Origin: Methanotrichaceae archaeon
GTDB taxonomy: Archaea; Halobacteriota; Methanosarcinia; Methanotrichales; Methanotrichaceae
Assembly (NCBI GenBank): GCA_013178225.1
Contig: JABLXE010000004.1
Location: 62,001 to 126,000, forward strand
Length of the DNA stretch: 64,000 nucleotides
Direction: 5' to 3'
Part shown: positions 26,706 to 54,474 of the stretch, piece after piece
How positions within the stretch are numbered: position 1 is the first letter of the stretch
Layout of the letters: each line of letters begins with the position of its first letter
Position numbers and translations under genes: made by a program
The notes under the pieces: generated by a model
Told to the model about the DNA's origin: nothing
The model's input: only the letters and a program-made list of their open reading frames with translations
The model's database searches: none

Positions 26706-27491
26706 TCACGATCCTTGAGCACAAAGCTCCTCGACAAATGCGATGATGTCGCTCACTATTACCGGGTCGTTCAGCCATATCCCGGCCTCGTAGTTGTTCT
26801 CCGCGCCACCCCGGGTGAGGTTGGCAGATGAGATTATGGCCTGCTTTCTGTCCACCAGGTAGAGCTTGGCATGAAGCTGTTTTAGAGTTACCAGCTCTCC
26901 GCCAAGGTCCTGGATCTCTGCCGAGATATCATCGCACAAGCCGGAAGAATAGTCGCCATCGCATCCCCTGATGAAGACACGGAGGCGGCCACCCCTCTGC
27001 ACAAAACCCCGAAAGGGCTTCTTGATGCGGTCCCACACCGACCTCTTGATCCAGGGTGATACGATTACGATCTCGAACTCGGCCTCCTCCAGCATTCGAC
27101 GGAGCCTGTCCTCAAAGCTGCAGATGCCCCGCTCCGGAGAGGTCTCAAGGAAAAGAAGGCTCCTTTCTCCCCGGGCCGGGCCGGAGACATACTCCTCCAG
27201 ATACTTCAGCCTCTGTGCGGAAAGATTTTCGGTTGAATCCCTGGTCTGGCGAAGCGCTAAATCCAGCTCTTGCGCCCGGCCCTTCCATTTCAGAAGAGCC
27301 ATTGACCTGCGTTTCAGCCTGTCGATCTCGCTCTCCTTGGCTCTCAGCTCTTCCTGAATATTCCGGGCTGCAAACTTCGCCCGGTCGGCCTCGCTCTGCA
27401 GGGCCCGGCAATGCCGGGACTTCAACTCGATTAATGTGAACGCGAGGACGGCCAGAGCCAGAAATAGAAGCCCCGCCAGATAATCATCCAT
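26706..27491 (-). CDS. Membrane-anchored phospholipase D-like protein
   Basis: The 261-residue protein starts with one membrane helix, continues with a coiled-coil-like segment rich in Glu, Arg and Lys (residues about 30-105), and ends with a PLD-like domain. One HKD motif is clear: H-A-K-L-Y-L-V-D followed by SSANLTRGG. The first half of the PLD fold has SPWIKRSVWDR but no second HKD, so activity would need a dimer. Such proteins act as nucleases or phosphodiesterases. It is divergent from the Ku-ligase operon across about 210 bases, which suggests, but does not show, a link to DNA end processing. Confidence 0.78.
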   Translation of the reverse strand: MDDYLAGLLFLALAVLAFTLIELKSRHCRALQSEADRAKFAARNIQEELRAKESEIDRLKRRSMALLKWKGRAQELDLALRQTRDSTENLSAQRLKYLEEYVSGPARGERSLLFLETSPERGICSFEDRLRRMLEEAEFEIVIVSPWIKRSVWDRIKKPFRGFVQRGGRLRVFIRGCDGDYSSGLCDDISAEIQDLGGELVTLKQLHAKLYLVDRKQAIISSANLTRGGAENNYEAGIWLNDPVIVSDIIAFVEELCAQGS

Positions 27492-27699
27492 TCCCCTATT
27501 GCCCTCAGGCATTTATGTAAATAGAACTTATATATAGATAGCGTAATGGCTGACTCTAGACAAAGAAGTGGTTGAATGTTCACTGCCGATCGGATCTCAG
27601 AACGGATGAGATTAATATTATTAAGAATCACTTCTTTTTCCGGGCCGGCAGGAGACGTCTCACAAAAATTCTAGTATCTTCCCGGCCTATTATGTTGTC

Positions 27700-28551
27700 A
27701 TGGCTGAAGTTGTACAGCTGAGGCAAGGCCGGGAAAAGGCCGAGGCCGGAGGGGCGGAGGCTGAAGAAGAAGAGGCTCAGGAGGCGGTTCCCCGGACCAT
27801 CTGGTCGGGAAGCCTGAGGATGGGACTGGTGAACATCCCCGTGAGAGCCGTATCCATGACCCGCGACCGGCACATACGATTTCGCATGATTCACAACGAG
27901 TGCAAGACGCCCATATCCTTCAAGCGCTTCTGTCAAGAGGGAAAGGAAGTGCCCATGAGGGAGGTCCTCTACGGCTACAGGCTGGAGCGAAATAAGTACA
28001 TCCTGCTGGAGAAGAAGGAGATAGACGAGGTAAAGCCGGAATCCAGCAACGCAATAGTCATGGACCGGTTCTTGAGCTTCTTTTCAGCCGATCCCCACTA
28101 TTTCGATCGAACCTACCTCTTGCTTCCGGACAAATCCGAGGAGGCCTATTCGCTTCTCAGAACAGTCATGGAAGAGACGGGAAAGGCCGCGCTGGGGAGA
28201 ATGACCCTCCGCTCCAAGGAGAGGATAGCCCTGGTCCATTACTACCAGAACGCTCTGGTGGTCACCACCCTCCGGTACCCCGAAGAAATTGTAAGACAGG
28301 AACTGTTCCCGGAGCTGTCCGGGCTTCCAGCCCCCAGCGAACAAGAGATGGCGCTGGCCAGACAGATCGTGGACAACCTCAGAGGCGACCTCGATTTATC
28401 AGACTACCACGATTTGTACCGGGAAAAGCTCGAAGAGCTGATCAGGGCCAAGATGGGAGAAGTGGTTCCCGTTGCCGAAAAGAAGAAAGAGCGACCTCCT
28501 GCCAAGAACCTCATGGAGGCACTGAGAATGACCGCCGAATCCCTCAAGTAA
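27700..28551 (+). CDS. ku: Ku protein of non-homologous end joining
   Basis: The 283-residue protein matches the prokaryotic Ku core: SGSLRMGLVNIPVRAVSMT, HNECKTPISFKRFCQEGKEVP, and the pattern YYLLPDKS-like FDRTYLLLPDKSEEAYSLL. Ku forms a homodimeric ring on DNA ends and recruits the ligase. An acidic, alanine-rich N-terminal extension of about 25 residues precedes the core. The ligase gene follows after 7 bases, so the two form an operon. Ku-ligase pairs are known in a few archaea, including methanogens such as Methanocella; they are rare in the domain. Confidence 0.93.
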   Translation: MAEVVQLRQGREKAEAGGAEAEEEEAQEAVPRTIWSGSLRMGLVNIPVRAVSMTRDRHIRFRMIHNECKTPISFKRFCQEGKEVPMREVLYGYRLERNKYILLEKKEIDEVKPESSNAIVMDRFLSFFSADPHYFDRTYLLLPDKSEEAYSLLRTVMEETGKAALGRMTLRSKERIALVHYYQNALVVTTLRYPEEIVRQELFPELSGLPAPSEQEMALARQIVDNLRGDLDLSDYHDLYREKLEELIRAKMGEVVPVAEKKKERPPAKNLMEALRMTAESLK

Positions 28552-28558
28552 TCCGATC

Positions 28559-29497
28559 ATGAACCCGGTTTCCCCCATGCTGGCCATGACCGGCCGGCCG
28601 TTCTCCTCGCCCGACTGGATCTTCGAGCCCAAGATAGACGGAACTCGCTGCATAGCCCAGGTTGGGAAGACGGTTCTCCTCTTCAACCGCAGGCAGGTCC
28701 CCATCACCTACCGCTATCCTGAACTATCCCGTGCGCTGAAAGAGATGGCCAGTGACTGTATTCTCGATGGCGAAATAGCGGTCTTCTCCAACGGACTGCC
28801 CGATTTTTCTGCCCTGGCCGAGCGGGATCATCAGATGGATAAAATGAAGATCGATTATCTATCTCAGGCCATGCCTGCCTCCTACATCGTCTTCGACATC
28901 CTGGAAGCTGACGGCCGGAATCTGCTGAACCTGCCCCTTCAGGAGCGAAAGGCAATCCTCAAAGAGACGATCTCAGGGGATGATCCGGTGACGGTCATCG
29001 ACTCCTTTGCAGAGCGCGGCGAAGACTACTTCCAGGCAGCTTTGAAGATGGGAATCGAAGGAGTTGTGGGCAAGAAGCTGGACTCCGTCTACCAGCCTGG
29101 AGTTCGCAGCCCCGACTGGCTGAAGATCAAGAAAAGGCTCAAGTTCGACCTGGTGGTGGGCGGCTACATTCCCGGACAGGGTCAGCGGGCACCCTATTTC
29201 GGCGGGCTGCTCCTGGGCGCCTACGAAGGCGATCGACTGGTCTATGTGGGCCGGGTGGGCTCAGGCTTCTCGCAAAAGGAGCTTTCCGAGATAGTAGCCG
29301 ATTTCGAGCCCGTTTCAGATTCTCCTTTCGTTTCGCCTCCCTCAACCAAAGGAGTCCGCTGGCTCCTGCCACGACAGGTGGTGGAGGTGGCAGCCATGGA
29401 GGTCACCTCCGACTACGGCCTGAGAGCCCCGGTTTTTCTGAGAAGGCGGTACGACAAAATTCCCCGGGAATGCACCATAGACCAGATCAGGCCGTGA
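28559..29497 (+). CDS. ATP-dependent DNA ligase of the LigD ligase-domain type
   Basis: The 312-residue enzyme seals strand breaks with ATP. The adenylation lysine is Lys25 in FEPKIDGTRC; later nucleotidyltransferase motifs include DGEIAV, YIVFDILEADG, EGVVGKKLD and WLKIKKR, followed by an OB-fold. The size equals the isolated ligase domain of LigD; no polymerase or phosphoesterase domain is fused or encoded next to it in the window. With Ku just upstream it makes a minimal NHEJ operon. It differs from the larger archaeal replicative ligase. Confidence 0.92.
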   Translation: MNPVSPMLAMTGRPFSSPDWIFEPKIDGTRCIAQVGKTVLLFNRRQVPITYRYPELSRALKEMASDCILDGEIAVFSNGLPDFSALAERDHQMDKMKIDYLSQAMPASYIVFDILEADGRNLLNLPLQERKAILKETISGDDPVTVIDSFAERGEDYFQAALKMGIEGVVGKKLDSVYQPGVRSPDWLKIKKRLKFDLVVGGYIPGQGQRAPYFGGLLLGAYEGDRLVYVGRVGSGFSQKELSEIVADFEPVSDSPFVSPPSTKGVRWLLPRQVVEVAAMEVTSDYGLRAPVFLRRRYDKIPRECTIDQIRP

Positions 29498-30232: not shown

Positions 30233-30264
30233 AAAAAAATTGTGGTGGCGAAGTCCTCGCCACC
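30233..30264 (-). terminator. Terminator of the giant surface-protein gene
   Basis: Read on the minus strand, GGTGGCGA (30264-30257) and TCGCCACC (30251-30244) form a perfect 8-bp stem with a 5-base loop, overlapping the stop codon by one base, followed by seven T residues (30239-30233). It looks like a classical intrinsic terminator. Confidence 0.7.
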
Positions 30265-33200
30265 TATGCTACCTTGACGCCTACGATCTTGGAGCTGATA
30301 CAGCCGTCGATGTTAGCGTTCACCCGGAAGGACTTGTCCCCCGCAACACCGAACACCGAGGTGAGCTGGTAGGTGCCGGGCGAGACTCTGGTCAGCCTGG
30401 CGCCAGATGATGCAGCGTCCTGGGGGCTCCAGGAGATTCCCACGTCACTCGGATCGGCCAGCTGTCCGTAGTTGTTGTAGAACTTGGCGGTCAGAGTGTA
30501 GGGACGGTTCGGCTTGGTCGAGCTGAAGGTGAGGACGATGTCGCAGCTCTTCAGCCCGGCCGGAAGCGCGAGCCTCAAGGGCTTCACAAAGATGTTCTGC
30601 CCTTGAGAGTCTTTGCTCGCATAAGCCACCCAGTACATGCCGTCGAGGCTGCTGTAGGAAAGCGACGACGCCGTCTGGTCTCCCGGACCTGAGGCTACAA
30701 CTGTACTGTCTACAGGCGCCCAGTCCTGCAGGAACCGGTCGAGCACCAGGTCATAATTTCCCGGCTTCTTGGTGGCATAAAGCAGCATGAACTGGCCGTT
30801 AAGCCATTTGAGCTGCGGATAGTCCTGATCAGAGCCGTCTGTAGTCAGTCTCTTTTTCTCCAGGAAATTGAGGCTGCCGTCCAGCTTCTGCAGGAAGATG
30901 TCCAGGTTTCCGGTCTCCTTGGAGACATAGGCCAGATAGAAGTTGCCGCCTGCGTAGGCCAGCGATGGCCGGTCCTGGTAAGACTTCTGGTCTGTGACCT
31001 GGACTGTGCTCAGGGGGTTCCACTTCTGATCGAACCTGGTGATGAACAGATCGCCTCCGCTGTCTGAACCGCTGTCCCAGGACTGGTAGGCCAGGAAGAA
31101 GCTGTCGCCCGCTGCTACTAACGACGGTGAGTCCTGGTTGGTGGGTGAGCTGGTGAGCTGCTTGGTCTCGACCAGGTTCAGGCTGCCGTCGTACTTCTTG
31201 AGGAAGATATCCCGGCTTCCAGTCTCTCCCGACACGTAGGCCAGATAGTAGTAGCCCTGTGAAAAGACCAGAGACGGTGAATCCTGGTAGGCTTTATCCG
31301 AGGCCACCCACACATTCTTGAGACTGCTCCACGCGGGATCGAACTTTTGCATGGTCACATCTCCCTGATTGCCGGTGCCCTTCTCCCAGCTCTGGTAGGC
31401 CATGAGGAAACCGTCCCCGGTGAAGAGCAGGGACGGTTTATCCTTGATCGCGCTGCCGGTGGTGACCGCTCTGGCCACCAGAGGATCAAGCAGCTTGAAG
31501 GTCTGTCCCACCGCGCTATCGTATGCTCCCGTTCCAGCATGCTTTCCGTCTCTTACGTACACGTAGACCGTGTAGTCTCCGGCATCAGCCGCCGTGTTGC
31601 CCCAGGTCCACTGGTTTGAAGAGGACCAGTCCTGCACCACCTTCCAGGAGCCTCCGGTGGAGGGCCCCTTCAGCCAGAAGCGGTAGAGCAGAGGATCGCC
31701 ATCCTGGTCTGAGGCCAGAGCCGTCCACTTGATCGAAGTGCCCGCGTACTGCGGGCTGGGCTTGTCTGCTGTCAGGGAGGCGGCCTTGGGGGCCATGTTG
31801 GGAGCTGTCAGGAGGACGTAAGACGCGCCCATGGCGCTGTCGTATCCTCCAACTCCAGCGTGCTTTCCGTCCCTGGCATAGACGTAAACCGTGTAGGCTC
31901 CGGAATCTGCGGCAGCGCTGTTCCAGGTCCAGGTGTTGGCGTATGACCAGTCCTGCACCACCTTCCAGGCATTATCCGTAGACGGCCCCTTCAGCCAGAA
32001 CCGGTACAGAACCGGATCGCCATCGGGATCGGAAGAGAAGGCCGCGAACTTGACCGGAGTGCTTGCGTACTGCGGGCTGGGCTTATCGGGATTGAGAGCA
32101 GTCAGCCTGGGAGGCTCGTTGGGCCGCAGCACCGTGAAGAGCGCTCCGGCATCGTCGTCCCAGCCGGTCAGACTGGCGTGCCGCCCGTCCCTGGCCTGCA
32201 CCTGCACTTCGCTGGTGCCTATGTCTGCCAACGACGTGGGCCAGGTCCAGGTGGGATCTGTGGACCAGTCGCGGACCATCTTCCACAGCCCTCCGGTGGA
32301 TGGACCTCTCAGCCAGTAGCGGAAGAAGACCGGATCTCCATCGGGATCAAAGGCCGTTGCCATCCATCTGGCGGTCACGCCTACCTGCTGCGGGCTGGGT
32401 AGGTTAGCGCTCAGGCTGGTGATCGTCGGAGGCTGGTTCAGGCTGATTATGTAGTAGCTGCTGGTGGCGTAATCGTCCGAGCCGCTGGCTCCAGCGTGCT
32501 TGCCGTCCCTTACTGCCACCAGGACCTCGCTGTACCCGATATCCAGTCCTGTAGTTCTCCACACCCACTTGTTGTTCTTGCCCCAGCCGGTCTGGTCGAT
32601 CCAGAACCCGCCAGTGGAGGGCCCTCTCAGGAAGAAGCGGTACTGCAAGGGATCTCCATCTGGGTCCGAGGCCAGAGCCGTCCACTTGACCCAGTTTCCG
32701 GCGTACTGCGGTGCCGGGCGGTCTGCGAAGAGCGACTTTAAGACCGGCCGCTGGTTGGGGCTGGTAAGCTCGTAGTTCTTGTACTCTTTCCGGACGTCGT
32801 ACCCGCTGGGACCGGCGTGGTTGCCGTCCCTGATCCAGACCTCGATGTTGTACTTGCCTGGCAGGTACCCAACTGTGCTCCAGCTCCAGGTGTTGCTTCC
32901 CGAGTATCCGGTGTCTGCCCGGACTACGCTGCTGGAAGGCCCTTTCACGATGAACCTGTACTGCAGAGAATCTCCTTCCGGATCTGTCGCCCCTGCGGTC
33001 CAGACGATCGGCGTGCCCACCTTCTGCGGGCTGGCTTTGTTCGGCACCAGCGTGGGATCTATCGGCGGCAGGTTGTTGTTGCGGTTGCCGAAGTCCATCC
33101 CCTGCTTGTTCTGGCCGGCTGCGAGGGTGATCGTGTAGACCTGTCCACCCGCTCCCACTGCTGGTTTGGTCTGAGTCCAGCCATCCTCTAAAACCTCTCC

Positions 33201-36200
33201 CACCACGTAGCTTCCGGGTGTCAGGTTGAGGAAGGAGTAAGATCCATCCGAACCAGTGGTTGTAGTGGCCGCCAGGGTCAGATTAGACGAGTACTTGAGT
33301 TCGATTTCCCAATCCGGAAGTCCCGGCTCACCCGCGTCTTTAGCACCGTTGCCGTTCAGGTCGTTGAACTTGGTTCCCAGGATCGATGCCAGCTGTGGTG
33401 GCGTGACCAGGCGGTTTCCGAAGTTCTGGTTGGCCTTGTTGCTGTTGGTGACAGAGACTGTGATCTCGGTCGGAGTGGTCGGAGTCCAGCCCTGTCTCGC
33501 CAGCTCGGAGACCTTGTAGGTTCCCGGAAGGATGTTGGCGAAGGAGTAGGCTCCGTTGGAATCGGTGTAGGTCTGGGCCAGCAGCAGATCCGGCGCTGGG
33601 CCCGGGGTGACAAAGGTCAGGACGATTCCCCAGTGATCAATTCCCTGCTCGCCGGAGTCCTTCTGGCCGTTGCCGTTCAGGTCGTTGAACTTCACTCCCG
33701 AGATCTTGTGGGGGCTGACCGCCGGTACGTTTACCACCGCAGAGCCCGATGGGGTGACGGTGACCAGGATGGGGTCATCCACCTCGTAGTTTCCGGGCAT
33801 CAGGTTGGTGAAGGTATAGCTTCCATCCTCGCCGGTGGTTGTGGTTGCGATCTCCTTTCCGTCCTTGGCCAGGGTCACCTGCAGCCCGGGAAGTCCGGGC
33901 TCATCCTCATCCTGCACCCCGTTTCCGTTGGCATCGTAGAACTTGACGCCCGATAGGGACAGGTCGGCACGGTTGCCGAAGTCCAGGCCGGAAATATCGG
34001 CGTCTTTTAGCTCCGCGCCGTATGATCCGCTGGCGGGAGCAGTCTGAGCCCATCCGTCCTGCAAGACCTCGGAGACTGTGTACGCACCCGGTGCCAGGTC
34101 TCCGAATCTATAGGAGCCGTCCTGAGCGGTGGTGGTGGCGTTGATCACGCTGCCGTCTTTGGATAGCTGTACGGTCCAGCCGGAAAGGCCGGGCTCGCCT
34201 TCGTCTCTGGCTCCATTGCCGTCCAAATCCTGGTACTTCATGCCGGATATGGACCACGAGCCGCGGTTTCCGAAGTCCAGGCCGGTGGCATCAGAGTCCT
34301 TCAGCGCAACGCTGTGCGATCCGCTGGCAGGAGCGGTTCTGGTCCAGCCGGCCTGTTCGACCTCGGTGATGGTGTACGATCCGGCCTCCAGGCCTTGGAA
34401 CCTATAGGATCCGTCGGCCCCGGTAACGGCAGTAGAGGCCTCGCTGCCGTCTTTGGAAAGCTGTATGGTCCAGCCGGAAAGGCCGGGCTCTCCATCGTTG
34501 ACGCCGTTGTTGTTCAGGTCGTTATACTTCATTCCGGATATGGAGTAGGTATTCAGCCGGTTGCCGAATTCCACTCCGGTGAGGTCCGAGCCGCCAAGCT
34601 CGACCGACTGCGAGCCGCTCTCGGGAGCGGTTGCAGCCCAGCCGGCCTGCAGCACCTCGGAGACGGTGTAGGCTCCGGCAGTCAAACCTTCGAAGCGGTA
34701 GGAGCCGTCTTCGGCGGTCAGCGTGCTCACCTGGGACCCGTCCGGCTTTTGCAGGTTGATGGTCCAGCCTGACAGGCCGGGCTCGTCTCTATCCTTGACG
34801 CCATTGCCGTTCCGGTCGTTGTACTTGAGTCCGGTGATGTTGCGAGAGGGAGCGACGATGCTGAAGTAGGCGATCTGTTCGCCGTCGCTATTATCCTCTG
34901 GCGCATGCTTTCCGTCTCTGATCCACACCCTTACCTGGTTCTCGCCAGTATCCGCAGCTGTGGTATCCCAGGTCCAGGCGTTCTGTGCCGACCATCCGGT
35001 CTGCGGCTGCCAGGAGTTCCCTGTTGCCGGGCCGCTCAAGAAGAACCGGTAGAGGATCGAATCGCCCTCTGGGTCGGTGGCGTTGGCGGACCAGGTAACT
35101 GATGTTCCCGGTGGCTGCGGGCTGGTTGTGTCCGGGACCAGAAGGTTCAGCACCGGGGCCAGGTTCTCCTCAACCGCGGGAGAAGGTGCCACCGGGGCGG
35201 TTACGTTCTCGGGGATGGTGACGTTTTCGATGGCTGGTGTTACCGGTGCGGTCACATTTTCCGGTGTCACCGGCTCAGTCACGTTTTCAGGTGCAGGAGG
35301 AGTCTCGACCTCTGGGGTCTCAGCAGCCGTCTCCTGGACGGGGGCGTTGATGGTGTACTCAGCCACCATGCTGCTGTCAAAGCCATCCTCGCCGGCATGT
35401 TTGCCGTCCCTTACTCTGACCTCGATCTGGCTGGTTCCTGCCTGAGAGGCAGTCCAGGACCAGACATTGCCGGCCGTCCATTCCGTGACCTCGCTTCCAT
35501 TCAGCAGGAATCTGTAAAGCAAGGGGTCATTCTCGGGATCGGTGGCTTCAGCCGTCCAGACGACTGCCGTCCCTATCGGCTGCGGGCCGGGCTGGTCCGG
35601 GCTCAGGCTGACCATTGCCGGAGTCTCGTTTTCTTTTGCCGGGGCCGTCGCAGCAGCCTCTTGCTCAGCAGGTGCGACTATGTTGAAGCTTGCACTCCTG
35701 CTGTCGTCAAATCCATCCTGGCCGGCGTGTTTGCCGTCAATTATCCTTACCTCAACCTGGTGCTCACCAGTCTTGGCTCCCGCGGTGTCCCAGGTCCACT
35801 GGTTCTGGATAGACCAGTCGCTGACTGCCTGACCATCCAGGAAGAACCGGTACTGCACCGGTTCGTTCTCCGGATCGGCAGCTTGAGCGGTCCAGGTCAC
35901 GGTTGCACCGACTTCCTGCGGACTGGTCTTGTCTGCGACCAGTTCGGTCAGAGCAGGCTTTTGGTCAGGTGCGGTTAAAACGAAACTGACCGAGCGGCTG
36001 TCATCGAATCCATCCTGGCCGGCGTGTTTGCCATCAATTATCCTTACCTCAACCTGGTGCTCACCAGTCTTGGCTCCCGCGGTGTCCCAGGTCCACTGGT
36101 TCTGGATAGACCAGTCGCTGACTGCCTGACCATCCAGGAAGAACTGGTACTGCACCGGTTCGTTCTCCGGATCAGAGACTTGAGCGGTCCAGGTCACGGT

Positions 36201-39032
36201 TGCACCGACTTCCTGCGGACTGGTCTTGTCTGCGACCAGTTCGGTCAGAGCAGGCTTCTGGTCAGGTGCGGTTAAAACGAAACTGACCGAGCGGCTGTCA
36301 TCGAATCCATCCTGGCCGGCGTGTTTGCCGTCAATTATCCTGACTTCAACCTGGTGCTCGCCAGTCTTGGCTCCTGCGGTGTCCCAGGTCCACTGGTTCT
36401 GGATAGACCAGTCGCTGACTGCCTGACCGTCCAGGAAGAACCGGTACTGCACCAGATCGTTCTCGGGATCAGAGGCTTGAGCGGTCCAGGTCACGGTTGC
36501 ACCGACTTCCTGCGGACTGGTCTTGTCTGCAACCAGTTCGGTCAGAGCGGGCTTCTGGTTAGGTGCGGTTAAAACGAAACTGACCGATCGGCTTTCGTCA
36601 AATCCATCCTGGCCGGCGTGTTTGCCGTCAATTATCCTTACCTCAACCTGGTGCTCACCAGCCTTGGCTCCTGCGGTGTCCCATTTCCACTGGTTCTGAG
36701 CTGTCCATTCACTCACAGCCTGTCCGTCCAGGAAGAACCGGTACTGCACCGGTTCGTTCTCGGGATCAGAGGCTTGAGCGGTCCAGGTCACGGTTGCACC
36801 GACTTCCTGCGGACTGGTCTTGTCTGCGACCAGTTCGGTCAGAGCGGGCTTTTGGTCAGGTGCGGTTAAAACGAAACTGACCGAGCGGCTGTCATCGAAT
36901 CCATCCTGGCCGGCGTGTTTGCCGTCAATTATCCTTACCTCAACCTGGTGCTCGCCAGTCTTGGCTCCTGCGGTGTCCCAGGTCCACTGGTTCTGGATAG
37001 ACCAGTCGCCGACTGCCTGACCATCCAGGAAGAACCGGTACTGCACCGGATCGTTCTCCGGATCGGCGGCTACAGCGGTCCAGGTCACGGTTGCACCGAC
37101 TTCCTGCGGACTGGTTCTATCAGGGCCGAACTCTGTCAGAGCCGGCTTCTGGTTAGGTGCGGTCAAGGCAAAGCTGGCAGACCTGCGGTCATCGAAGCCG
37201 TCCGGTCCGGCGTGCTGGCCGTCTCTCACTCCCACCTCTACCTGATAGCTGCCGGCAGTGGCAGATGCAGTGTCCCAGATCCAGACGTTGGACCCGGTCC
37301 AGTCGGTCACCGGCTGGCCGTTTAGGAGGAACATGTAGTACAGCTGATCTCCTTCGAAATCAGAGGCTTCAGCCGTCCAGGTCACAACCGTTCCGGTCTC
37401 CTGGGGGCTCATCTCATCGGCACCCAGGTTAACTATGCTCGGTTTCTGGTTCGGAGCAGTTATGACAAAGCTTGCTCCTCGACCATCATCCGAACCATCC
37501 TGGCCGGCGTGTTTTCCGTCAATTATCCTGACCTCTACCTGATTCTCACCCACATCATCGGTGCCGGTCTTCCAGGTCCACTGGTTTTTAGTCGTCCAAT
37601 CGGTTGCAGGCTGGCCGTTTAAGAAGAACCGGTAGCGAATGGGGTCGTTCTCAGGATCCGAAGCTTCAGCCATCCAGGTGATCGCAGCTCCGGCCACCTG
37701 AGGACTGGCTTTGTCAGCCCCGAGACTCTTCAAGGCCGGGATCTGGTTGGGCACGGAAATTGTGAACTGTGCAGACCGGCTGTCATCGAGGCTGTCCGGC
37801 CCGGCGTGCTGGCCGTCTCTTACCCGCGCTTCAACCTGATAGTTACCAGCTGGTGCAGATGAAGTGTCCCAGCTCCAGACATTGGACCCGGTCCAGTCTG
37901 TCACCGGCTGGCCGTTTAAGAAGAACATGTAGAGCAGCGGGTCCCCATCGGAATCGCTGGCCTGGGCGGTCCAGGTTATAGGAGTTCCGGCCTCCTGGGG
38001 GCTGGACCTGTCCGGGCTCAGGCTTACCAGCGCCGGTTTCTGGTTGGGGGCAGTGATCGTGTACTCTGTTGAGGATACATCGTCGTAGCTCTGACGCTTG
38101 GCGTGCTCGCCGTCGATCACCCGAACCTCAATCTCGTAATCGCCGGGTCTCACGCGGGACGTGTCCCATGTCCAGGTATTGGATGCAGACCAATCCTGAG
38201 CCGTCCTGCCGCTCAGCAGGAACTGAAAGAGCAGAGAATCTCCCTCGGGATCGGAGGCCTCAGCGGTCCAGGTCACAGCCGTTCCTGCCGTCTGCGGGCT
38301 GTATGGACTGGCTGTAAATCCCGTCAGAGAGGGAGGCTCGTTGGCCTCGACCAGCTGGGCTGGCGTTCTCCCAAACTCCTGCACTTGTTCAGGCATTTGT
38401 TGGGGTATTTGCTGAGACGCCTGCTGGGGTTCTTCCGCAGCAGCAGGAATCCCGTAAAGCTCTTCCTCTTGAGTTGGCGGAACAAATCCGGGCGTCTCCT
38501 GTCTCTTGGAATTTATGATGTAATCCTGAACGCTTGAAGCGTCGCTCCCGTCTTCGTCGGCGTGATTGCCGTCTCGAATCCAGACCCGAACCTGGTTGGA
38601 GCCTGCATCATCTTCTGAGGTCTCCCATCTCCAGGATTCGCTCCTCGTCCATTCGGTCATCTTCTCCCAGCTTTCGCCGGTTGAGGGCCCGTTCAACCAG
38701 AACTGATAGTAAATCTGATCGCCCTCCGGGTCTATGGCCTTCGCTGACCACCGGATCGTCCTTCCTGCATCCTGAGGGCTGGACCTGTCGGGTTCGAAGT
38801 CGATCAGCTGCGGCGGCTGGTTGCTTCCGCTGGCCTGGTCAAGGCCGGGCAAATCCCCTGAAAACGGATTTCTGGAAGAAAAGTCTCCGGAAAAGGGTTG
38901 CGCCTGAACCGAGGACGCAAGCAGCATCCCGCATGTAATTGCAATCGTTAGAAGCAGAACGAAGTCTACAAATTTTCGTTTTCGGAGCTTTTTAGAGCTA
39001 AGCTCCCTCACGGCGACGTCTATAATTTCCAC
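30264..39032 (-). CDS. Giant secreted surface protein with PKD-like, SdrD-B-like and propeller-like repeats
   Basis: The protein of 2,922 residues begins (GTG start) with a basic segment and a signal peptide ending near residue 45. It contains about 12 repeats of roughly 99 residues, each starting NQKPAL or similar and containing SPQ-x2-G-x3-TW, WDT and DGKHAG motifs, a PKD/cadherin-like fold. A Pro/Thr/Glu-rich linker (about 1227-1290) precedes repeat 12. Six SdrD-B-like domains follow (about 1400-1990, G-x-K-x-x-D-x-N-G-N-G motifs that bind Ca2+ in relatives), then five more PKD-like repeats with the variant GPSTG, a propeller-like region (about 2517-2823) and a final Ig-like domain. No C-terminal anchor is seen. 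Its role may be in the envelope or adhesion. Confidence 0.88.
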   Translation of the reverse strand: MEIIDVAVRELSSKKLRKRKFVDFVLLLTIAITCGMLLASSVQAQPFSGDFSSRNPFSGDLPGLDQASGSNQPPQLIDFEPDRSSPQDAGRTIRWSAKAIDPEGDQIYYQFWLNGPSTGESWEKMTEWTRSESWRWETSEDDAGSNQVRVWIRDGNHADEDGSDASSVQDYIINSKRQETPGFVPPTQEEELYGIPAAAEEPQQASQQIPQQMPEQVQEFGRTPAQLVEANEPPSLTGFTASPYSPQTAGTAVTWTAEASDPEGDSLLFQFLLSGRTAQDWSASNTWTWDTSRVRPGDYEIEVRVIDGEHAKRQSYDDVSSTEYTITAPNQKPALVSLSPDRSSPQEAGTPITWTAQASDSDGDPLLYMFFLNGQPVTDWTGSNVWSWDTSSAPAGNYQVEARVRDGQHAGPDSLDDSRSAQFTISVPNQIPALKSLGADKASPQVAGAAITWMAEASDPENDPIRYRFFLNGQPATDWTTKNQWTWKTGTDDVGENQVEVRIIDGKHAGQDGSDDGRGASFVITAPNQKPSIVNLGADEMSPQETGTVVTWTAEASDFEGDQLYYMFLLNGQPVTDWTGSNVWIWDTASATAGSYQVEVGVRDGQHAGPDGFDDRRSASFALTAPNQKPALTEFGPDRTSPQEVGATVTWTAVAADPENDPVQYRFFLDGQAVGDWSIQNQWTWDTAGAKTGEHQVEVRIIDGKHAGQDGFDDSRSVSFVLTAPDQKPALTELVADKTSPQEVGATVTWTAQASDPENEPVQYRFFLDGQAVSEWTAQNQWKWDTAGAKAGEHQVEVRIIDGKHAGQDGFDESRSVSFVLTAPNQKPALTELVADKTSPQEVGATVTWTAQASDPENDLVQYRFFLDGQAVSDWSIQNQWTWDTAGAKTGEHQVEVRIIDGKHAGQDGFDDSRSVSFVLTAPDQKPALTELVADKTSPQEVGATVTWTAQVSDPENEPVQYQFFLDGQAVSDWSIQNQWTWDTAGAKTGEHQVEVRIIDGKHAGQDGFDDSRSVSFVLTAPDQKPALTELVADKTSPQEVGATVTWTAQAADPENEPVQYRFFLDGQAVSDWSIQNQWTWDTAGAKTGEHQVEVRIIDGKHAGQDGFDDSRSASFNIVAPAEQEAAATAPAKENETPAMVSLSPDQPGPQPIGTAVVWTAEATDPENDPLLYRFLLNGSEVTEWTAGNVWSWTASQAGTSQIEVRVRDGKHAGEDGFDSSMVAEYTINAPVQETAAETPEVETPPAPENVTEPVTPENVTAPVTPAIENVTIPENVTAPVAPSPAVEENLAPVLNLLVPDTTSPQPPGTSVTWSANATDPEGDSILYRFFLSGPATGNSWQPQTGWSAQNAWTWDTTAADTGENQVRVWIRDGKHAPEDNSDGEQIAYFSIVAPSRNITGLKYNDRNGNGVKDRDEPGLSGWTINLQKPDGSQVSTLTAEDGSYRFEGLTAGAYTVSEVLQAGWAATAPESGSQSVELGGSDLTGVEFGNRLNTYSISGMKYNDLNNNGVNDGEPGLSGWTIQLSKDGSEASTAVTGADGSYRFQGLEAGSYTITEVEQAGWTRTAPASGSHSVALKDSDATGLDFGNRGSWSISGMKYQDLDGNGARDEGEPGLSGWTVQLSKDGSVINATTTAQDGSYRFGDLAPGAYTVSEVLQDGWAQTAPASGSYGAELKDADISGLDFGNRADLSLSGVKFYDANGNGVQDEDEPGLPGLQVTLAKDGKEIATTTTGEDGSYTFTNLMPGNYEVDDPILVTVTPSGSAVVNVPAVSPHKISGVKFNDLNGNGQKDSGEQGIDHWGIVLTFVTPGPAPDLLLAQTYTDSNGAYSFANILPGTYKVSELARQGWTPTTPTEITVSVTNSNKANQNFGNRLVTPPQLASILGTKFNDLNGNGAKDAGEPGLPDWEIELKYSSNLTLAATTTTGSDGSYSFLNLTPGSYVVGEVLEDGWTQTKPAVGAGGQVYTITLAAGQNKQGMDFGNRNNNLPPIDPTLVPNKASPQKVGTPIVWTAGATDPEGDSLQYRFIVKGPSSSVVRADTGYSGSNTWSWSTVGYLPGKYNIEVWIRDGNHAGPSGYDVRKEYKNYELTSPNQRPVLKSLFADRPAPQYAGNWVKWTALASDPDGDPLQYRFFLRGPSTGGFWIDQTGWGKNNKWVWRTTGLDIGYSEVLVAVRDGKHAGASGSDDYATSSYYIISLNQPPTITSLSANLPSPQQVGVTARWMATAFDPDGDPVFFRYWLRGPSTGGLWKMVRDWSTDPTWTWPTSLADIGTSEVQVQARDGRHASLTGWDDDAGALFTVLRPNEPPRLTALNPDKPSPQYASTPVKFAAFSSDPDGDPVLYRFWLKGPSTDNAWKVVQDWSYANTWTWNSAAADSGAYTVYVYARDGKHAGVGGYDSAMGASYVLLTAPNMAPKAASLTADKPSPQYAGTSIKWTALASDQDGDPLLYRFWLKGPSTGGSWKVVQDWSSSNQWTWGNTAADAGDYTVYVYVRDGKHAGTGAYDSAVGQTFKLLDPLVARAVTTGSAIKDKPSLLFTGDGFLMAYQSWEKGTGNQGDVTMQKFDPAWSSLKNVWVASDKAYQDSPSLVFSQGYYYLAYVSGETGSRDIFLKKYDGSLNLVETKQLTSSPTNQDSPSLVAAGDSFFLAYQSWDSGSDSGGDLFITRFDQKWNPLSTVQVTDQKSYQDRPSLAYAGGNFYLAYVSKETGNLDIFLQKLDGSLNFLEKKRLTTDGSDQDYPQLKWLNGQFMLLYATKKPGNYDLVLDRFLQDWAPVDSTVVASGPGDQTASSLSYSSLDGMYWVAYASKDSQGQNIFVKPLRLALPAGLKSCDIVLTFSSTKPNRPYTLTAKFYNNYGQLADPSDVGISWSPQDAASSGARLTRVSPGTYQLTSVFGVAGDKSFRVNANIDGCISSKIVGVKVA
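35680..37170 (-). repeat. Five near-identical 297-bp tandem units inside the giant gene
   Basis: The DNA of about residues 620-1117 consists of tandem units of exactly 297 bp (99 codons). Long blocks are base-for-base identical between units, for example the block around GGTCCACTGGTTCTGGATAG. Such conservation at synonymous sites points to recent duplication or gene conversion. The flanking repeats are related in protein but not at DNA level. Confidence 0.8.
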
Positions 39033-39304: not shown

Positions 39305-39811
39305 TCAGGCGAAGGGGTGCTTTGCCGAATCCTTTTTGGCCAGGACGTCCTTGGCTGTCGGGCTTCCAGATACCGCGCGCTCAATTGCCAGCTTGGTGGC
39401 CCGATAATTGTAGTCGAAGACCTTTTTCTTATCGCGAGCATCCCATTCGATGAATACGGAGACTATTATGAACAGGTCGTCGGCTTTTTCCTCCAGTATC
39501 GTACCTTCGGCCACACAGTCCATGACCGCCTTGGCCACAGCCGCCTGGGCCGGCCCGAACATCAGCACGGCCTGAGATGCGCCTTTGATGGTCACCTTGT
39601 TCACCATCAGCGTGGACGGCTTGGCCGGCAGATTGGGCTCGAGAACCGCCAGCAGCGGAGTATGCCCTCCCGCCGGCGATGCCAGGGAGTTCACAAAGGC
39701 CTCTTCCACGGCTCCGCCTCTGGGTCCGATAACCAGATCTATGTGAGCGATCTCCGGTCCCTCTCCCACCAGGGCCTCTCCTACGAGCGTTCCCTGAAAG
39801 TGATGCAACAT
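39305..39811 (-). CDS. fae: Formaldehyde-activating enzyme
   Basis: Fae condenses formaldehyde with tetrahydromethanopterin (or tetrahydrosarcinapterin) to the methylene form. The 168-residue protein has [20 protein letters not shown], with the catalytic-region histidine, [29 protein letters not shown] and [13 protein letters not shown], all diagnostic. In methanogens Fae serves C1 balance and formaldehyde detoxification or pentose synthesis. The start at 39811 is supported by a TATA-like AAATATATATC about 20-30 bases upstream, implying a nearly leaderless mRNA; a longer in-frame start at 39976 would run through that promoter. Confidence 0.93.
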
Positions 39812-40029
39812 AAAACTAGTTTTGGCCACTTTGATATATATTTGTGAGCATCCCGCATTTCTGTCGCGACTGGAAAGTACGCCCCAGAGGTTCAGGAGCC
39901 CTTCAGCACATTCGCAATCCAGCGAACTCTGCGAATAGATGAACGGAAATGGGAAGAGAGCCATGGTCCAGGCCATGAAATTTCGTCCAAGCCATAAAAT
40001 ATATCATCACAATATCTATGTGAGATGCG

Positions 40030-50988: not shown

Positions 50989-53900
50989 ATGATCAGACGA
51001 TCTTTGTGGACATTATTTGTAGTACTCATCCTGATATTTCTGCTTCCGGCCGTCAGTGCCAGCGCCCGGCAGGACGGAATGCCGGACCACTTGCCAGCCG
51101 GTAACATGAGCGATGATGGAAAGCTTCCGGTCGTAGTTTTGTTCAAAGGACTGGACAGGCCCGATCTCAGCGGCGTGGATGTGAGATATCAATACCGGCT
51201 AATCAACGGACTCGCCGGACGGGCCGCTTCCTCAGACATCGAGCGCATTGCCGGGAGCGAAACCGTGCTGGGAGTTTATCCGGATGATTTGATAGATGTT
51301 AAAATGCCCGCTGACGAGACCTCGAACGGCCTGCTGCTTTGCCCGGCCACGGTGATCGGTGCCGAAAAGCTGTGGGAAAGGGGAATTGATGGTAGCGGAG
51401 TGGTGGTTGCAGTTCTCGATTCGGGCATCGATCGCAACCACCCAGACCTGGCAGGAAAGGTGATCGGAGAGAAGAACTTCGTCGAAGATGAGGCCTCTGC
51501 CGACGACCTGCTGGGGCACGGCACCATGGTTGCCGGGATAATTGCCGGCAGCGGCGCGATGTCAAGCGGGACTTATAAAGGGGTTGCCCCTGGCGCCGGC
51601 CTGCTTAACGTCAAGGTAATAGACAAGAGCGGAGACGGAAAAGTATCAGACATCATCGCGGGCATCGAATGGGCGCTTTACAGCGGCGCTGATGTGCTGA
51701 GCTTAAGCCTTGGTGGGGCAAACCTGGGCGAGACCAACCCGCCCATCACCATGGCAGCGGACAACGCCATGGATGCGGGCGCGGTGGTGTGCGTGGCTGC
51801 AGGCAACCGCAACAACACCAAGACCAACGGGGTCGCCCAGAGTGCGGGGCCGAATTTTGGGCTGTCCGGTGAGGACATGGTTAGGATCTCTCAGCGGAGC
51901 GACAGCGATGACGTTTTCCTGGTCCTGGTTCCGATAATACTGGCCCTAACTCCCGGGCTGATCGACTCCCCGGGCGACGGCGTAAATGTGATAACAGTGG
52001 GCTCCTCGGATTGTGCAGGGCACGTGGCCGGCTTCAGCGGCTCCGGACCCACCAGGGATGGCAGGACCAAGCCGGAGATCGTGGGGCCTGGAGTGGACGT
52101 GGTATCGACCGTTCCGATGGCCCTCGAGGATCTGAATTACATCGACGTCTATTACGCCAGGGAGTCGGGAACCAGCCTCTCCACTCCAGCAGTGGCCGGA
52201 ATGGCGGCGTTGTTGCTGCAGGCTGAGCCGGACCTGACTCCGGCCGGGGTCAAAGCGGCTCTGACCAGGGGCGCTGAAAAGCTTCGCAATTCCCAGGGAG
52301 AGGAGTACGAGGAGTACTATCAGGGCGCGGGAGAGATGAACGCCGAGGGTTCCTACCAGCAGCTAGACCAGGATCTGTGTGCTGCGATACCGGATAAATG
52401 GGTCGCAGGAAAGTGGGCCTATCTGCCCGCCGGAAAAGGGCTTTACGTGGGGCTGGATGCAGGAGCAGACCGGCCGCAAAAGAAGCTGTATTCTCTGGCA
52501 CCCGGAGACGAAGACTGGAACAACGAGTTCGTGTTCTTTACCGACAAAGACCGGGAAGATCTGCAGGTCTCGGCTGAGGGAGAGGTGGCGGACTGGATAA
52601 GCCTTCAGTCCCTGCCCCGTAAGGCGTCTGCCAACGACCAGGAGATATTCGGCGCTTCGCTGAGGGTGCCGGAGGACGCTTTACCCGGAACTCACAACGG
52701 CTCGATTATCATCAGTGAGAAAGGCCGGTCCATATTCACCATACCGGTGTCCGTGGAGGTCGCAGAGCCGCTGGCGATCTCCAGAGGAAGAGGATCTGCG
52801 ACAGACATGCTTGCCGATAGCCAGTGGCACTACTATTATCTCGACGTTCCGGTTGGAACGAGCGAACTGAGATCTGTTCTATCGGCGAAGGGCACCTCTG
52901 CCAGCCTCGACCTGTTCCTGCTTTCTCCCACCAGCGAATACTATGCCGGCGAACTGAAAGGCTTAACCCAGGAGGTAAGCGTCGAAAGCCCGCCCAACGG
53001 ACGGTGGCTTTTGGCTGTTCACAGCGAAAATCTGACCGCCCCGCTGAACTATAGCCTTGAAGTTGAGCGATCGCTAATCGATAGCTCTCCTCGGAGATGG
53101 AACCTGGAGGACGGCTTTCCCGGCCAGAGCGTGAGCAGCCTCTTTGTCGTCGAGAATCGAGGTCCTGCGCTGGAGAATTTGAGCTACAGGAGCGTCATCG
53201 AAAATATCACCCGCCTGGATCTGAGCGGATCTGTCGGCTCTAAAGAGGTCTGGGAGAGCACGCTTGCCGTCACCGACCAGACCAGCCGGCTGTCGGCCAG
53301 GCTACATTCTCACGACCGCAACAACAGAAGCGAGCTTCTCTTTCTCTTCGAGGACCCCGAAGGGCAGCCCCTGGACGCCGACCTGGGTAAGGGGGACCTG
53401 GGGCCTCTCGAGGTCTCCCGGCCTAAGCCCGGACTCTGGAAGATCAGGGTTTACGGCTATGACGTTCCCGGTGGGGGGCAGTCCTTCGATGTAGGCCTTA
53501 CCGACTACGCTAAGGAGCCCTGGAGCTGGATATTAACGGAAGGGCCGGGTATGATCGAGAGCGAGTCAAACGGCACCATTAAGGCAGTTCTATCCATTCC
53601 CGAGAACGCCTCCTCTCAAAGGCTGGACGGGTACCTGGAGGTGTCAGCTGCGAACCAATCCTTTCAGATCCCCGTCAGCGTGACCGTGGCCGGAACGACG
53701 CTTGAGGGTCTGCGTGAGGCCAAGGCTCTTGATAGCAACGGCGACGGATACTACGATCGGCTCAGATTGGATCTCGGCCTCAACGAGACGGTTTCCGGGG
53801 TCTATAGCGTGGAAGGAGTGCTGACGGATTGCGCCGGAAATCGGATAGAAGACCTGAGCGCCACTGCCGGCGGGCAGATGGAAGGCCAAGTCGAGATTGA

Positions 53901-54474
53901 GGTGAACGGAAGCTTGATCTGGAGATGGGGAAGATGCGGCCCCTTGAGGATTGAGAACCTCGTGCTCCGCAATCCTCGCGGAGATCTAATCGACCATTAT
54001 GAGGGAAAGATCACCATAGACGAAGATCCAAAAAGCTTCCAGCCTCCGTCCGCATTCTTTTCCGGAGGCTTCCAGAACCTGACCGGCTCCCAGAAGATCG
54101 CCATTGGAGTTAACCTGACGGTCATCGATCCTGGAACCTACAGGGTTGAAGGGTCTCTCCTCAACGATCGCGGCGAAGAGGTGGGAAAGGACAGCGTGGA
54201 GAAAAGGCTCGTCTCCGGCAATGTCTCCTTATCCCTGGAGTTCAACCCCACTAAATTCGAGATGTTTGGCAGAAGCTCTCGTTTGCATCTGGTGGACCTG
54301 GTGCTCTCCCGGGACGGAGCAGAGCTGGATCGACTGCCTGAAGCATGGTCTTCCGGAGTCATGAATCCCCGCGGCTTCGGACCTGCGGCCAGCTCTTCCG
54401 TCACATCCAACCTGACCCCTGAAGGCGGGAGGGGAGCCATAAGAATAGAGAACGGACGGGCGGTCATATCCTGA
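50989..54474 (+). CDS. Large secreted subtilisin-like serine protease
   Basis: The 1,161-residue protein has a signal peptide (to about SASA, residue 26) and an S8 domain with Asp144 (AVLDSGIDRNH), His177 (LLGHGTMVAG) and Ser396 (SGTSLSTPAVAG). A propeptide-like segment lies between residues 45 and 115. An unusual insertion (about 290-330) holds a hydrophobic run. After the protease domain come beta-sandwich domains, some resembling pre-peptidase C-terminal domains (around 590-690). No C-terminal anchor or sorting motif is seen. It is divergent from the archaeosortase operon across 70 bases, so the two promoters are back to back. Confidence 0.88.
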   Translation: MIRRSLWTLFVVLILIFLLPAVSASARQDGMPDHLPAGNMSDDGKLPVVVLFKGLDRPDLSGVDVRYQYRLINGLAGRAASSDIERIAGSETVLGVYPDDLIDVKMPADETSNGLLLCPATVIGAEKLWERGIDGSGVVVAVLDSGIDRNHPDLAGKVIGEKNFVEDEASADDLLGHGTMVAGIIAGSGAMSSGTYKGVAPGAGLLNVKVIDKSGDGKVSDIIAGIEWALYSGADVLSLSLGGANLGETNPPITMAADNAMDAGAVVCVAAGNRNNTKTNGVAQSAGPNFGLSGEDMVRISQRSDSDDVFLVLVPIILALTPGLIDSPGDGVNVITVGSSDCAGHVAGFSGSGPTRDGRTKPEIVGPGVDVVSTVPMALEDLNYIDVYYARESGTSLSTPAVAGMAALLLQAEPDLTPAGVKAALTRGAEKLRNSQGEEYEEYYQGAGEMNAEGSYQQLDQDLCAAIPDKWVAGKWAYLPAGKGLYVGLDAGADRPQKKLYSLAPGDEDWNNEFVFFTDKDREDLQVSAEGEVADWISLQSLPRKASANDQEIFGASLRVPEDALPGTHNGSIIISEKGRSIFTIPVSVEVAEPLAISRGRGSATDMLADSQWHYYYLDVPVGTSELRSVLSAKGTSASLDLFLLSPTSEYYAGELKGLTQEVSVESPPNGRWLLAVHSENLTAPLNYSLEVERSLIDSSPRRWNLEDGFPGQSVSSLFVVENRGPALENLSYRSVIENITRLDLSGSVGSKEVWESTLAVTDQTSRLSARLHSHDRNNRSELLFLFEDPEGQPLDADLGKGDLGPLEVSRPKPGLWKIRVYGYDVPGGGQSFDVGLTDYAKEPWSWILTEGPGMIESESNGTIKAVLSIPENASSQRLDGYLEVSAANQSFQIPVSVTVAGTTLEGLREAKALDSNGDGYYDRLRLDLGLNETVSGVYSVEGVLTDCAGNRIEDLSATAGGQMEGQVEIEVNGSLIWRWGRCGPLRIENLVLRNPRGDLIDHYEGKITIDEDPKSFQPPSAFFSGGFQNLTGSQKIAIGVNLTVIDPGTYRVEGSLLNDRGEEVGKDSVEKRLVSGNVSLSLEFNPTKFEMFGRSSRLHLVDLVLSRDGAELDRLPEAWSSGVMNPRGFGPAASSSVTSNLTPEGGRGAIRIENGRAVIS

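Follow-up and report, generated by a model that had tools for sequence, protein, structure and literature searches.

A 2,922-Residue Protein of a Methanotrichaceae Archaeon with Ig-Like Repeats, SdrD_B Domains, and a Beta-Propeller, a Candidate Surface Tether

Domain organization and gene neighborhood

The window analyzed here, a stretch of 64,000 nucleotides from a draft genome of a Methanotrichaceae archaeon, carries on its minus strand a coding sequence for a protein of 2,922 amino acids (30264..39032), with a GTG start at 39032 and a TAG stop at 30264-30266. A first-pass annotation of the DNA had the coordinates and length of this open reading frame exactly right. Its remark that no anchor is visible also agrees with hydropathy across the whole protein, in which residues 21 to 39 form the single strongly hydrophobic segment and no membrane anchor was seen elsewhere. 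That segment is part of a signal-peptide-like N terminus (38901..39032, minus strand; residues 1 to 44), assigned by reading and hydropathy, with basic residues at 14 to 20 and an ASSVQA end preceding Q45; several orthologs have similar N-terminal endings, A-x-A-Q or A-S-G-Q. From the N terminus onward, 12 Ig-like repeats are followed by 6 SdrD_B domains, a further 5 Ig-like repeats, a propeller with six blades, and finally a small beta-sandwich; the stretches without assignment are all shorter than 60 residues. The named relatives are Methanothrix MAGs, in agreement with the archaeal origin proposed earlier. Against NCBIfam, the top match was PRK14081, "triple tyrosine motif," an identity that we rejected because its score of 298.9 bits is far under the cut-off of 842. 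Our literature searches found no paper on the protein.

The 17 Ig-like repeats are divided as the first-pass annotation had counted them, with block 1 (34851..38822, minus strand; residues 71 to 1394) holding 12 and block 2 (31485..33074, minus strand; residues 1987 to 2516) holding 5, on either side of the SdrD_B domains. The repeat length of about 99 residues given there applies to repeats 2 to 10 (98 to 99 amino acids) and repeat 11 (about 97), and does not apply to repeats 1 and 12 or the five of block 2, which are about 105 to 107 amino acids long. An alignment shows 14 columns invariant across all 17 repeats. In Pfam, the whole protein matched Big_7 (PF17957) over six stretches with 99.3 bits against a cut-off of 24.1, far beyond chance. 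Repeat 8 scanned alone also exceeded the Big_7 cut-off (30.2 bits), and repeat 16, from block 2, gave no Big_7 match and 17.9 bits with Big_9 (cut-off, 23.6). The nearest solved chains in profile comparisons (E values of 4e-5 to 4e-3) were a chitodextrinase, a CBM74 chain, the related starch-adherence protein Sas6, and a "bacterial immunoglobulin domain."

The repeats had earlier been described as PKD-like, a description that did not survive the Pfam check. No PKD model appeared among the 24 families matching the whole protein at an E value of ≤1, nor at an E value of ≤10 in single scans of 2 of the 17 repeats, and Cadherin_4, with a cut-off of 25.1, scored 14.7 bits; PKD and cadherin assignments were both rejected. 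The PKD miss is not a failure of the tool, because the same library detects PKD_4 with 189 bits in a papain-like protein encoded elsewhere in this genome. That protein (L074:4302-7700, plus strand; 1,132 amino acids) combines an SdrD_B domain and a papain-like protease with seven PKD stretches. Judged from their sequences, the repeats are of the Pfam bacterial Ig (Big_7) type, and neither PKD nor cadherin.

Between the two blocks lie six SdrD_B domains (33075..34847, minus strand; residues 1396 to 1986), whose family membership, suggested in the first-pass annotation, is borne out by 298.5 bits with PF17210 over six stretches (cut-off, 29.7), far beyond chance. The acidic calcium-type loop D-x-[ND]-x-N-G is intact in all six, and the profile of the block aligns with Staphylococcus SdrD across this loop. 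Other solved matches were uro-adherence factor A of staphylococci, human NOMO2, and pilins. A predicted structure of the SdrD_B/Ig segment was poor (pLDDT, 58). According to passages of a published study (PMC6232131), the B domains of staphylococci coordinate three Ca2+ ions and withstand forces above 2 nN, and by analogy the archaeal segment may likewise be calcium-locked and force-bearing.

The propeller-like region and Ig-like end described earlier were both recovered, the latter in broad terms, in an AlphaFold2 model of residues 2412 to 2922 made with four sequences as input. The model (mean pLDDT, 80.4) consists of a beta-sandwich repeat, a six-bladed propeller (30567..31454, minus strand; residues 2527 to 2822, approximately), and a C-terminal sandwich. 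The propeller has a sialidase/GH43-like fold. Its best solved structural match is 3h6j (Z score of 29.8; rmsd of 3.2 over 296 residues; 11% identity), and the closest folds are sialidases and arabinanases, with 7 to 13% identity to the solved enzymes listed. D-x-P-[SQ]-L opens five of the six blades, and a degenerate form of it opens the sixth. A search with an Asp-box pattern found none in the propeller or the whole protein, and the Pfam match to GH43 was weak, at 28.1 bits and below the curated cut-off of 32.2. In a sequence-level alignment of 15 propellers, Arg 2766 is present in all 15 and Arg 2666, 2727, and 2728 in 13 to 14. The C-terminal sandwich (30267..30566, minus strand; residues 2823 to 2922), with two cysteines (2830 and 2911), was modeled at lower confidence (pLDDT blocks of 62 to 83), and its 100 residues match no Pfam family above cut-off.

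Upstream of the gene lies fae, for a formaldehyde-activating enzyme (39305..39976, minus strand). It adjoins the ortholog in 14 of 20 loci that were picked by hand from the best family matches, and so are not a random sample; in five of the other six, the open reading frame reaches the contig end. A GATase gene is near the ortholog in 11 of the 20 loci, and three of the 29 neighbors compared (fae, GATase, and Thg1-type) are recurrent. We rejected an operon partner that would explain function, since the recognized neighbors are housekeeping or DNA repair genes (fae, GATase, Thg1, Ku, ligase, TFIIB, and others) and the three recurrent ones are functionally uninformative. Just downstream of the giant gene, PLD-like, Ku, and ATP-dependent DNA ligase genes stand side by side in an end-joining-type cluster (26706-29497), and elsewhere in the window there is a 1,161-amino-acid subtilase-family protein (50989-54474, plus strand).

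Repeat turnover and distribution of the modules

Among orthologs with an intact N terminus, block 1 contains from 2 to 16 repeats in a species-level comparison that includes drafts. There are 12 here, 16 in G015, 8 in G017, 6 in G018, and 7 in G005; within genus g9, there are 11 (G046), 5 (G043), and 2 (G042). These counts come mostly from draft genomes, that of the window among them, in which near-identical repeats are easily miscounted; G046 is assembled in one contig and G015 in two. Repeats 6 to 10 of the window's protein (35670..37154, minus strand) are recent copies with mutual DNA identities of 86.9 to 95.3%. In G046, neighboring block 1 copies share 87.5 to 100% DNA identity; in G015 they share 81.1 to 99.3%, apart from the last pair with 52.2%.

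The two blocks were compared in a tree of 130 repeats. Nearest-neighbor counts used 102 repeats from eight SdrD_B-type proteins, two of which (G028 and G003) are cut N-terminally by a contig end; the 28 repeats left out belong to two g7 proteins, an ANME-1-like protein, a viral protein, and two other proteins of the window's genome. The nearest neighbor lay within the same protein for 45 of 63 block 1 repeats versus 8 of 39 block 2 repeats (Fisher P value of 6e-7, a guide only, since the repeats are non-independent). The first repeats (7 of 8) and the last block 1 repeats (5 of 7) behaved like block 2, being nearest to a repeat of another species. Block 1 repeats are thus homogenized within species, and block 2 repeats are mostly one-to-one, orthologous by position, between species. 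Most of the sequence from the last block 1 repeat onward is likewise recognizable between species. Turnover in block 1 together with orthology in block 2 is therefore what one would expect if the stalk varied in length and the core to which it belongs were fixed.

The remaining modules are not universal among the 20 ortholog loci. SdrD_B domains, numbering 6, 7, or 9, are present in 14, and the six loci without them are all of genus g7; three of those six still adjoin fae. The propeller is also present in 14, and the six loci without it are all of genus g8. In four genomes (G018, G023, G037, and G001) the propeller is kept and a stop codon precedes the end domain, and at L042, L043, and L049, draft or finished loci, the ortholog frame is split. 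The ortholog of the near-complete genome G015 adjoins fae and ends after the Ig repeats, without a propeller.

In each of the 50 Methanotrichaceae genomes, at least a part of the protein has a match at an E value of ≤1e-3. A single copy of the propeller, whether the end domain follows it or not, is present in each of 23 of the 50, spanning 8 of 11 genera; it was not found at an E value of 1e-5 in the other 27, some of which are incomplete drafts. Elsewhere in the class there were 14 weak propeller matches (E values of 3e-10 to 6e-6). Among 392 genomes sampled from the phylum, one other family supplied five matching genomes (E values of 4e-20 to 1e-67), and two more families supplied one each, at 5e-14 and 1e-9. 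The family with five matches is ANME-1-like, and 5 of its 51 genomes analyzed have the propeller match. All five encode mcrA, scoring below the equivalog cut-off, and mer was not found in any of the five, four of which are 75 to 87% complete. The motif CC-x4-C-x5-C is present at three of the four mcrA loci checked, the fourth holding the N-terminal part only. We take mcrA with this motif and no mer to be marks of ANME-1, and call the five genomes ANME-1-like accordingly. Sheaths are patchy within the ANME-1 lineage. One of the ANME-1-like proteins (L079; 809 amino acids) has a signal-peptide-like start, three same-family Ig repeats, the propeller, and a different end; L081 is a fragment resembling it, and in L082 the propeller follows other domains.

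Related Ig repeats and SdrD_B domains occur in further proteins. Membrane proteins from two genera of Methanotrichaceae also carry Ig repeats of this kind, namely a DUF1616 protein with four repeats (L068:3397-6387, plus strand) and a protein with a chain of them (L076:2204-5668, plus strand). A provirus contig of the window's own genome, C11 (L069), has portal, protease, scaffold, major head, and terminase genes. It encodes a 552-amino-acid protein (L069:4045-5703, minus strand) with four repeats that score with the profile of the window's Ig repeats; this protein has no Pfam or PHROG family match, and a 99%-identical piece of it is in an IMG/VR contig. Viral contigs queried with the whole 2,922-amino-acid protein yielded no Ig repeats. 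Also on C11 are a 493-amino-acid protein fusing DNA ligase-like, uracil-DNA glycosylase, and XkdF-type head protease parts (L069:9081-10562, minus strand) and a 1,149-amino-acid protein that combines SdrD_B-type domains with a VWA domain and ends C-terminally in a hydrophobic tail resembling an anchor (L070:2989-6438, plus strand).

Comparison with known surface proteins

The protein shares features with several known systems. Like the staphylococcal Sdr adhesins SdrD and SdrG, it has tandem SdrD_B domains with an acidic calcium-type loop, probably a stiff force-bearing segment. However, it scores far below the NCBIfam cut-offs for these adhesins (159.8 of 2500 bits for MSCRAMM_SdrD and 112 of 1700 for SdrC), its B domains lie between Ig arrays, its host is an archaeon, and no sortase-type end was seen.

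Stalks of near-identical tandem repeats whose number varies are a known bacterial surface strategy, as described in parts of PMC9704523. The likeness to periscope proteins and fibrillar adhesins consists in near-alike tandem Ig-like repeats of variable number plus a fixed nonrepeat domain. The periscope class is recognized by tandem folded repeats that are longer than 50 residues and highly identical in DNA, and such repeats are found here (86.9 to 95.3% for repeats 6 to 10; 87.5 to 100% in G046). In contrast to the periscope proteins, the nonrepeat domain is C-terminal here and typically N-terminal there, no tether is present here, repeat number is known to vary between species only, and attachment is putative, with a signal-peptide-like start and no anchor seen. 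By analogy, the protein, which we do not class as a periscope protein, may work in the manner of periscope or fibrillar adhesins, as portions of the published accounts portray them (PMC9704523; PMC8201768). Two papers on these protein classes make no use of the word archaea in their text.

Sialidase and GH43-type propellers share with this one the six blades and the high structural score to 3h6j, and differ from it in the Asp-box pattern, the low identity, and the missed curated GH43 cut-off. Archaeal sheath (SH) proteins, as presented in sections of PMC11576556, resemble the protein in having Methanotrichales and ANME-1 hosts, chains of Ig-like domains, and a proposed adhesive role. The protein here differs in its SdrD_B domains and propeller and in having no space for the amyloid SH core. 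We rejected an SH protein with an Ig cap, judging by space alone, since the core consists of two six-stranded sheets.

A proposed tether and its alternatives

We lean, by a little, toward a secreted, calcium-stiffened tether of variable length, resembling a fibrillar adhesin and held noncovalently in the envelope or sheath. At about 4 nm per domain, the stacked domains would form a rod on the order of 100 nm. Block 1 would set the reach of this rod, calcium would lock the middle SdrD_B segment, which would bear force, and the propeller and C-terminal sandwich would serve as a ligand-binding head, probably for glycans of the envelope or of a neighbor. We propose retention through noncovalent binding to the sheath, S-layer, or matrix because no anchor is visible; the location, ligand, and anchoring of the protein are what we infer. 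The long envelope stalk of the first-pass annotation gains strength from the variable block 1 and the fixed core, and we keep it as a proposal; the intercellular link also suggested there is a conjecture. Several results count against the tether. The propeller is dispensable, with 27 of 50 family genomes, near-complete G015 included, lacking it at an E value of 1e-5. SdrD_B domains are absent from 6 of the 20 ortholog loci, all g7, no anchor was found, and the model of the SdrD_B/Ig segment was poor.

A different role, which we think unlikely, would be a structural one within the sheath system, in which the protein would be a linker outside the amyloid that ties together cells, plugs, or sheath hoops, with adhesion to other cells secondary. 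Relatives are spread across a sheathed family, Methanotrichaceae, and the Ig-propeller combination is also found in ANME-1-like genomes. On phylogenetic evidence, Methanotrichales and ANME-1 have exchanged at least five sheath-protein types, according to passages of PMC11576556, in which plug composition is described as not established in published work. This linker is opposed by the lack of space for a sheath amyloid core, with unassigned stretches of less than 60 residues, by the absence of the propeller from 27 of 50 family and 46 of 51 ANME-1-like genomes, and by the neighborhood, since none of 20 neighboring proteins was recognized as a sheath protein in Pfam (4 of the 20 have no Pfam family). 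Because no anchor was found, the protein could be shed. Instead of forming a stalk anchored at the surface, it would then belong to the matrix or granule, or act as a decoy against viruses and parasites; we consider this quite unlikely. The missing anchor favors it, whereas another SdrD_B protein of the genome ends in a hydrophobic segment and a basic tail. The provirus protein with four same-family Ig repeats, encoded near head genes, also favors it, but viral use of the Ig family shows module sharing alone.

It seems highly improbable that the protein is a glycan-processing enzyme on a long stalk, with its propeller acting as a hydrolase of the GH43 or sialidase type. The nearest folds, the weak GH43 match, and the one invariant and three nearly invariant arginines speak for it, but that match stays under the curated cut-off, the pattern search turned up no Asp-box, the solved enzymes listed share just 7 to 13% identity with the propeller, and activity does not follow from a common fold. 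We infer a binding module rather than an enzyme. A broader version of the tether is very unlikely as a whole: a non-amyloid sheath component in which a calcium-locked, length-tunable tether would couple Methanotrichaceae cells, plugs, and sheath, the Ig-propeller module would have moved between the family and ANME-1, and Ig modules on virions would dock on the same envelope.

Methanothrix-type filaments are important producers of methane and scaffolds of anaerobic granules and electron-sharing consortia. Partner bacteria attach to the Methanothrix-type sheath, according to parts of PMC10470525, and plug proteins could not be identified in published work, according to parts of PMC11576556. As a protein that may make these filaments stick, the 2,922-amino-acid protein is a defined candidate whose parts lend themselves to testing, among them the calcium-type segment, the stalk of variable length, and the propeller, which occurs in two lineages of archaea.
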